Position numbers and translations under genes: made by a program | In this document: in pieces, positions 42,858 to 45,198 of the stretch | How the letters are laid out: each line of letters starts with the position of its first letter | Position numbering within the stretch: position 1 is the stretch's first letter | Source of the DNA: Flavobacterium sp. | GTDB taxonomy: Bacteria > Bacteroidota > Bacteroidia > Flavobacteriales > Flavobacteriaceae | Length of the DNA stretch: 64,000 nucleotides | Direction of reading: 5' to 3' | Assembly (NCBI GenBank): GCA_010365135.1 | Contig: JAAFGY010000002.1 | Location: 1-64,000, forward strand | Notes under the pieces: generated by a model | Databases searched by the model: none | The model's input: the letters and a program-made list of their open reading frames with translations, nothing else | Told to the model about the DNA's origin: nothing

Positions 42858-42974
42858 TTAAACAATTCTATATTTATTCCTTTTTTGCATTTTTGTGTAT
42901 AAAGCAAAATGGCGGTTTTTTTTATCGTACCTTTAATTGCGCAATTGGCGGTGCCTTATTAAAATTACAAAACG

Positions 42975-43814
42975 ATGAAGATAGTAAAACATTCAGGCGA
43001 TATTGTTGATTTTAACCCAAGTAAACTCAAACAGTCACTTTTGAAATCAGGAGCGAGTCAAGAAGTTGTCGAAACTATTTTGAAAAGCATTCAAAATGAA
43101 ATCTACGAGGGAATTTCGACCAAACATATCTACAAAATGGCTTTTGGTCTGCTGAAAAAAGCTTCAAATACCAATGCTGCTCGATATAATTTGAAAGAAG
43201 CTATCCGATTATTAGGGCCTGCTGGATTTTTCTTCGAAAAATATATTGCTCGGCTTTTCGCTTCTGAACAGTACGAAACCCAAACGAATTCGATTCTTCA
43301 AGGCAACTGCGTTTCGCACGAAATTGATGTTTTGGTCCAAAAAGATCATGTCATTTCGATGATTGAGTGTAAATTTCATATGGGAAAAGATGCCAATTCG
43401 GATGTAAAAGTACCCATGTATATTTTGTCCCGTTTTAATGATTTGAAAGAAAGAAAACACGTCATTTTCTCTGGGAGAGAATCTATATCAAAATGTTGGA
43501 TTGTTACCAATAATCGATTTACATCGGATGCAATTCAGTTTGCAAATTGTTCGGGATTGAGTTTGTTAAGTTGGAATTTCCCTGAAAACAATAATTTAAA
43601 AACTAAAAACGACGACAATTATCTTTATCCAATAACCTGTTTGACCACTTTATCATTGCCAGAAAAAGACAGATTGCTAGTCCTTGATGTGATTTTAGTA
43701 AAAGAATTAATAAACAATTCCGAATGTTTAGAAAAAATAGGATTGAGTCCTAATCGGATAAAGAACGTTTTGAAAGAAGCCTCAGAATTGTGTAAATATA
43801 TCAATAGCCAATGA
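42975..43814 (+). CDS. ATP-cone domain + PD-(D/E)xK (Mrr-like) nuclease
   Basis: N-terminal MKIVKHSGDIVDFNPSKLKQSL (ATP-cone); CVSHEIDVLVQKDHVISMIECKFH (E-x-D...ECK nuclease core). Confidence 0.85.
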   Translation: MKIVKHSGDIVDFNPSKLKQSLLKSGASQEVVETILKSIQNEIYEGISTKHIYKMAFGLLKKASNTNAARYNLKEAIRLLGPAGFFFEKYIARLFASEQYETQTNSILQGNCVSHEIDVLVQKDHVISMIECKFHMGKDANSDVKVPMYILSRFNDLKERKHVIFSGRESISKCWIVTNNRFTSDAIQFANCSGLSLLSWNFPENNNLKTKNDDNYLYPITCLTTLSLPEKDRLLVLDVILVKELINNSECLEKIGLSPNRIKNVLKEASELCKYINSQ

Positions 43815-43842
43815 TTTTAACCGTTGATAAAAATAGGAAATC

Positions 43843-45198
43843 ATGAAAATTAAGTTTATTGGAGGAGCAGGAACGGTAACAGGTTCAAAAACATTAATTG
43901 AAAGTAATGGGGTTCGAATTTTAATCGATTGCGGACAATTTCAAGGCATTAAACCATTGAGAGAACTAAACTGGCAGTCCTTACCAGTATTGCCTTCAAC
44001 CGTAGATATTGTATTGTTGACTCACGGTCATTTGGATCATTGTGGTTGGTTGCCAAGATTGGTAGAGCAAGGATTTAAAGGGAAAATATATTGTACGAGT
44101 CCAACTAAAGACATTACCAAACTCATCCTTTCAGATAGTGCAAAAATTCAAGAAGAAGAAGCCAATAAGGCGAATAAAGAGCATTATTCTAAACACGAAA
44201 TTGCCGAACCACTTTATAATTTAGAACAAGCCGAAGCTGTTTTTCCTCTTTTTAGAGTCGTAAAAATCAATGAAAATATTGCTTTGGATGCCGAGATTTC
44301 AGCTGTTTTTGTCAATGCTGGACACATTATTGGAGCTTGCAGCATCGAATTGAATTTGGAAAATAAAACGCTGGTTTTCTCAGGAGATATTGGTCGTGAT
44401 AACGATATTTTAATGTATCCGCCGACCAAACCCAAAAAAGCGGATTATATTTTCTTGGAAAGCACTTACGGAAATCGCCTTCATCCCGACTCGAATGTCA
44501 AAGCAGAACTAGAAATGTATATTAACAATACAGTTCAAAAAGGCGGAACAATTATTATTCCGAGTTTTGCTGTAGAACGCGCTCAAACAGTGATGTACTT
44601 GCTGTGGCAACTTAAAACTGAAGGTAAAATTCCAAATATTCCGTATATAATTGATACTCCAATGGGAATTAGTGTTGTGGAAATTTTTGAAAATAATAAA
44701 AAATGGCACAAATTGCCCGAACAAGATTATGTCGCAATGTGTCAAATGTTTACAATGATTTCGGATTATCAAGATACTATTGAAGCGATTTACAAAAAAC
44801 GGTCGAAACTAATTATTGCAGCTAGCGGGATGATTACCGGCGGTAGAGTTTTGAGTTATTTAGAACGTTATATTGGTTTGCCTGAAACTACCGTAATCAT
44901 CATTGGCTATCAAGCCGAAGGAACACGTGGCAGAAAATTATTGGAAGGCGAAAAAGAAATTAAAATTTATGGCAAATTCTATGATGTTAAGGCCAATATC
45001 CTCAACATAGAAGGATTGTCGGCTCATGGCGATCAAAAGGATTTGATCAATTGGCTTTCTGAATTGGAAAATACTCCTAAAAAAATATTTTTGGTTCACG
45101 GAGAAGATGGGGCTTTAGAGGAACTCGGCATTAAAATCAATGAAAGGTATGGTTTTGAATGTGTAATTCCACAAATGAATCAAGAGTTTGAACTTTAG
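43843..45198 (+). CDS. beta-CASP metallo-beta-lactamase nuclease (RNA-specificity/RMMBL type)
   Basis: LLTHGHLDHCGWLPRL; STYGNRLHP; IIPSFAVERAQTVMYLL; GMITGGRVLSYL; LSAHGDQKDLINWL. Confidence 0.94.
   Translation: MKIKFIGGAGTVTGSKTLIESNGVRILIDCGQFQGIKPLRELNWQSLPVLPSTVDIVLLTHGHLDHCGWLPRLVEQGFKGKIYCTSPTKDITKLILSDSAKIQEEEANKANKEHYSKHEIAEPLYNLEQAEAVFPLFRVVKINENIALDAEISAVFVNAGHIIGACSIELNLENKTLVFSGDIGRDNDILMYPPTKPKKADYIFLESTYGNRLHPDSNVKAELEMYINNTVQKGGTIIIPSFAVERAQTVMYLLWQLKTEGKIPNIPYIIDTPMGISVVEIFENNKKWHKLPEQDYVAMCQMFTMISDYQDTIEAIYKKRSKLIIAASGMITGGRVLSYLERYIGLPETTVIIIGYQAEGTRGRKLLEGEKEIKIYGKFYDVKANILNIEGLSAHGDQKDLINWLSELENTPKKIFLVHGEDGALEELGIKINERYGFECVIPQMNQEFEL

Follow-up and report, generated by a model that had tools for sequence, protein, structure and literature searches.

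What would a nuclease that carries an ATP-cone do immediately upstream of a beta-CASP nuclease, and do the two belong together? The question is raised by two neighbouring genes, A and B, in the window, a stretch of 64,000 nucleotides from Flavobacterium sp. ATP-cones are known to control both the synthesis of dNTPs and the transcription behind it, and an ATP-cone nuclease kept beside an RNase would extend this kind of control to nucleic-acid breakdown.

Domains and conserved residues of genes A and B

Gene A opens with the ATG at 42975 and closes with the TGA at 43814, and gene B, on the same strand, runs from the ATG at 43843 to the stop at 45198, with 28 bp separating the two (Table 1). An earlier note, made from the letters alone, had read the ORF 42975-43814 as an ATP-cone joined to an Mrr-like core, and this reading was borne out with exact coordinates, Pfam scores above the cut-offs and a fold match. 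Pfam assigned PF03477 (ATP-cone, 30.6 bits against a cut-off of 25.8), PF04471 (Mrr_cat, 26.8 bits against 21) and PF22357 (AF1548-like_C, 28.5 bits against 23.9) to the protein. With PF22357 above its cut-off, the note's "short C-terminal helical region" turns out to be a named domain. The dN/dS ratio was about 0.05-0.12 for both A and B, indicating purifying selection, and thus neither ORF is a chance reading frame.

Table 1. Positions of the two genes, the domains of A and a possible promoter element in the window
Feature	Position	Strand	Basis
Possible own promoter element of A, TCGTACCTTTA	42925..42935	+	visual comparison of upstream sequences, inference
Gene A: ATP-cone, Mrr-like PD-(D/E)xK nuclease and AF1548-like C-terminal domain, 279 aa	42975..43814	+	Pfam, PDB, conservation, AF2 model, fold match
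ATP-cone of A, residues 1-70	42975..43184	+	Pfam, NrdR fold match, alignment with host RNR cones
PD-(D/E)xK core of A, residues 84-198, putative catalytic E88, D118, E131 and K133	43224..43568	+	Mrr_cat, invariant columns
AF1548-like C-terminal helical domain of A, residues 218-272	43626..43790	+	PF22357, secondary structure of model
Gene B: MBL-fold beta-CASP nuclease with RMMBL, 451 aa	43843..45198	+	Pfam, NCBIfam, PDB matches, conserved residues

By sequence, A matched AF1548 (PDB 1Y88) in the PDB with an E value of 1.4e-28, and RNR and NrdR were absent from the PDB sequence matches of its profile, NrdR surfacing in the fold search only. The AF2 model of A, built on 50 homologues, reached a mean pLDDT of 94; its top fold match was again AF1548 (E 9.9e-17), followed by the Can2/Cdn1 and MspJI nucleases, and its ATP-cone part superposed on E. 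coli NrdR with an rmsd of about 1.6 over 79 columns. With an Mrr-like core and an AF1548-like C-terminal domain above the cut-offs, and with the 1Y88 match, A falls into the AF1548 family.

The residues E88, D118, E131 and K133 are invariant among the 50 homologues of A, and the last three fall within the motif SHEIDVLV...SMIECKFH. The model has a helix at residues 86-96 (with E88) and strands at 101-109, 114-123 (with D118) and 126-133 (with E131 and K133), which would place the putative catalytic residues on the first helix and on the second and third core strands, as a PD-(D/E)xK/Mrr nuclease should have them. On the catalytic geometry of the motif, which the note had made a condition of its proposal, the confident model agrees as far as the secondary-structure elements go. 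By alignment, D118, E131 and K133 correspond to D38, E51 and K53 of AF1548, which were predicted to be catalytic (PMC1821046). In the ATP-cone, K5 is invariant, and at least 90% of the 50 homologues share K17 and T49. All three align with residues of the ATP-cones of host ribonucleotide reductase, and from the literature on that enzyme we presume them to be nucleotide contacts. The cone of A may accordingly bind ATP or dATP and gate the nuclease.

In B, Pfam recognized the Lactamase_B, Beta-Casp and RMMBL domains, and at least 97% of 61 homologues share its residues H61, H63, D65, H66, H161, D182, E206 and H395. The protein combines MBL, beta-CASP and RMMBL parts with the HxHxDH motif and the downstream metal ligands, as TTHA0252/CPSF73-type enzymes do. 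Judged by these domains and residues, B is an intact MBL/beta-CASP/RMMBL nuclease of the TTHA0252/Cas14 type, and RNA cleavage is its predicted activity. The CPSF73-like beta-CASP hydrolase with an intact HxHxDH that the note had placed 28 bp on, on the same strand, was confirmed by Pfam, conserved residues and coordinates alike. Eleven unannotated "phage" records match B, and the five listed ones come from human faeces; such "Bacteriophage sp." records, MT836048.1 among them, carry B-like proteins of about 35-42% identity and may be bacterial contigs.

Inheritance of the A-B pair

Gene B lies directly 3' of A in all 35 of the closest loci, among which the flanking genes vary, and a full-length B directly follows A at 52 of 80 loci, mostly with gaps below 50 bp and in several cases with 4-bp overlaps. 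Of 248 sampled Bacteroidota genomes, 40 contain A, and a comparison of coordinates placed 29 of the 44 A genes, the window's own included, next to B. Ranked by similarity to the window's B, the 29 B genes adjoining A, again with that of the window, take the first 29 places; the next (50% identity) belongs to a genome (G350) that has no A. Within the genus, 11 genomes have both genes and four have neither, and B-like genes are widespread across the sampled Bacteroidota also where A is absent. Conservation of the pair was one of the note's own refutation tests, and the proposal came through it strongly.

The correlation between the pairwise distances of A and those of B is 0.86, against values of 0.50 and 0.54 for the two genes with PNPase; in the comparison with GroEL it is 0.80, against 0.65 and 0.60. 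These values are descriptive, pairwise distances not being independent; on them, the divergence of A and B follows that of the partner gene more closely than that of housekeeping neighbours. To judge from the sequence comparisons, A and B are a co-inherited two-gene unit. About a third of the A genes have no adjacent B, and A can therefore act alone. Among open-licence papers on ATP-cones together with Mrr or other nucleases, none was found to describe A or the conserved A-B pair; the domain architecture of A is already catalogued.

Genomic surroundings and regulation

The surroundings of A outside the genus were compared in regions of up to 20 kb, some shortened by contig ends, with 40 control regions at arbitrarily chosen coordinates of the same genome set. 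A universal stress protein was encoded in 10 of the 32 A regions and a P1B-type (copper-type) ATPase in 14 of them, each against none of the 40 controls. Furthermore, some loci with A hold AMP/thymidine phosphorylase, PRPP synthase, type II GAPDH and aldolase genes, and four-gene operons of A, B, phosphorylase and PRPP synthase occur on plasmids of Criblamydia and Pontibacter. Because phosphorylase and PRPP synthase lie near A in only one of the 32 regions of the unbiased sample, the link to salvage is suggestive, not general. Stress proteins, P-type ATPases, nucleoside phosphorylase and PRPP synthase as neighbours fit the "nucleotide stress or RNA turnover" that the note had put forward.

Only two plasmids were found to carry A, against 264 for B, and a phosphorylase gene adjoins B in 39 of the best 60 plasmid records with B, mostly from Proteobacteria. 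The Chlamydiota plasmid NZ_LK031773.1 carries phosphoketolase, acetate kinase, glucan phosphorylase and heavy-metal efflux genes in addition to the four-gene operon. A 152-aa "ATPase" beside B in Methylophaga was considered as an ATP-cone protein and rejected, having no Pfam match.

Several single loci have features of their own. At three Flavobacterium loci (L052, L059 and L060), the pair stands beside a PAS sensor, a response regulator, a P-type ATPase and a BON-domain-like protein, and at L059 and L060 also beside universal stress proteins. A small conserved protein of about 140-150 aa, beginning with M..TGIW.DK or similar, is encoded between the stress proteins and A at several loci (L162:10480-10890 and L031:2392-2850, for example); that of L031 had no match in Pfam or NCBIfam. 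Elsewhere in the genome of the window (contig C42:11410-11781) there is a decayed second A gene, interrupted by an in-frame TAG and cut short after about 125 codons; a universal stress protein gene lies upstream of it and a 6-phosphofructokinase-like fragment nearby. Flavobacterium-type loci (L041, L075 and L033) also occur on contigs labelled Bifidobacterium breve, Sphingobacterium thalpophilum and Lentimicrobium MAGs, which are probably misbinned or mislabelled.

As for regulation, most Flavobacterium relatives have, as judged by eye, a sequence resembling TCGTACCTTTA some 30-50 bp ahead of A. FNR-type sites were not enriched upstream of A operons over random stretches, and a single CRP-like site was seen. 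In Bradyrhizobium, the operon bll3117-bll3116-bll3115, encoding thymidine phosphorylase, PRPP synthase and an MBL hydrolase, is induced in microoxia in a FixK2-dependent manner (PMC6515984, PMC9104804); we assume that its MBL protein is an orthologue of B.

Possible roles and comparison with known systems

We tentatively favour, at somewhat short of an even chance, the reading that A and B form a nucleotide-gated nucleic-acid turnover or salvage module for energy or metal stress. Adenine nucleotides on the ATP-cone would probably set the nuclease activity of A, B would be its beta-CASP ribonuclease partner, and both would most likely break down or trim nucleic acid once energy, low-oxygen or copper stress alters the adenylate state; at the fuller loci, AMP/thymidine phosphorylase and PRPP synthase would recycle the products. 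We infer the substrates of A and B and the cooperation between them, and the two-gene version in the window may match the larger operons in function. In favour of this reading are the domains and predicted fold, the intact active-site residues, purifying selection, the conserved pairing, the stress, metal and sometimes salvage genes nearby, the FixK2-dependent Bradyrhizobium operon and the RNA-degrading relative TTHA0252. Counting against this reading, stress, copper-pump and salvage genes are not beside the pair in this genome or in most close Flavobacterium loci; the rarity of phosphorylase and PRPP synthase near A in the unbiased sample, the A genes that have no B next to them, the few plasmids with A and the lack of enriched FNR-type sites weigh on the same side. 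That ATP or dATP on the cone controls A as an adenylate-gated switch, with A and B releasing nucleotides from nucleic acid during energy or metal stress, is possible, and we hold it to be rather doubtful.

Alternatively, A could be a dATP-tuned nuclease of DNA maintenance, acting in repair or recombination like Mrr or a Holliday-junction resolvase, its link to B being one of regulatory convenience with no joint reaction. The Mrr_cat core, an ATP-cone otherwise typical of the control of dNTP synthesis (NrdR and RNR) and the third or so of A genes that stand without B all speak for it; however, repair or recombination genes were not recognized as recurring beside A, the informative contexts being stress proteins, metal pumps and nucleotide salvage, and the strong co-divergence of A and B also argues against an explanation that we consider unlikely. 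We judge it similarly improbable that B is an RNase of general mRNA turnover, with A as an accessory nuclease of RNA quality control whose cone is structural and senses no energy. TTHA0252, a relative of B, breaks down RNA and alters mRNA levels globally (PMC4229858), and the spread of B-like genes without A through the Bacteroidota agrees with such a role, but 90-100% of 50 homologues keep the lysines and threonine by which the cone presumably contacts the nucleotide, residues for which a domain of purely structural use would have no need.

An anti-phage system, in which phage-induced changes of the nucleotide pool switch on a sensing nuclease and an RNase, appears very unlikely. Its attraction lies in the nearest non-orthologous fold matches of A, which include the cyclic-oligoadenylate-activated Can2 and Cdn1, in a weak PADLOC similarity of A to CARF-PDDEXK and ZorD (best E 1.2e-5, mainly over the nuclease part) and in the resemblance of B to type VII Cas14, but all of these similarities reflect shared nuclease folds. 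The neighbours are stress, metal and metabolic genes, and recurrent defence genes were not recognized among them. PADLOC gave partial, weak matches and no full-length match to a defence protein, and searches of phages and viral contigs returned no homologue of A, so the "phage response" suggested in the note found no backing.

Among known systems, B aligns over its length with TTHA0252 (E 1.1e-62), with intact MBL motifs, and differs from the TTHA0252/CPSF73 type in belonging to a subgroup co-inherited with A. Its best match among solved structures is Cas14 of type VII CRISPR (E 1e-68); at 451 aa, B is shorter than Cas14 (about 610 aa), whose additional C-terminal part it does not have, and its identification as type VII Cas14 was rejected at an NCBIfam score of 396.7 bits, against an equivalog cut-off of 800, with 434 of 612 positions covered. 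The bll3117-bll3115 operon combines MBL hydrolase, thymidine phosphorylase and PRPP synthase as several B operons do, but, as reported, it has no ATP-cone nuclease, unlike the A-B loci.

A shares its nuclease core and C-terminal domain with AF1548 of Archaeoglobus fulgidus, whose solved chain of 199 residues covers residues 85-271 of A only, the N-terminal ATP-cone being the extra part of A. The structure of AF1548 was released in 2004 without an assigned role, and we found no functional study of it in the literature; the reading proposed here would suggest a function for AF1548 and for the widely distributed "ATP cone domain-containing protein". With the cones of NrdR and ribonucleotide reductase, A shares sequence and fold, but its cone is fused to a nuclease, whereas NrdR has a DNA-binding zinc ribbon and RNR a reductase. 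Can2 and Cdn1, CRISPR ancillary nucleases built of CARF and PD-(D/E)xK domains, would resemble A in the way they work, a nucleotide-sensing domain being fused to a nuclease; their CARF domain senses cyclic oligoadenylate, A has an ATP-cone in its place, and no CRISPR genes were recognized near A. If the adenylate-gated switch were true, A would represent a form of nuclease regulation parallel to that of the cyclic-oligoadenylate-activated CRISPR nucleases, using ordinary cellular nucleotides.
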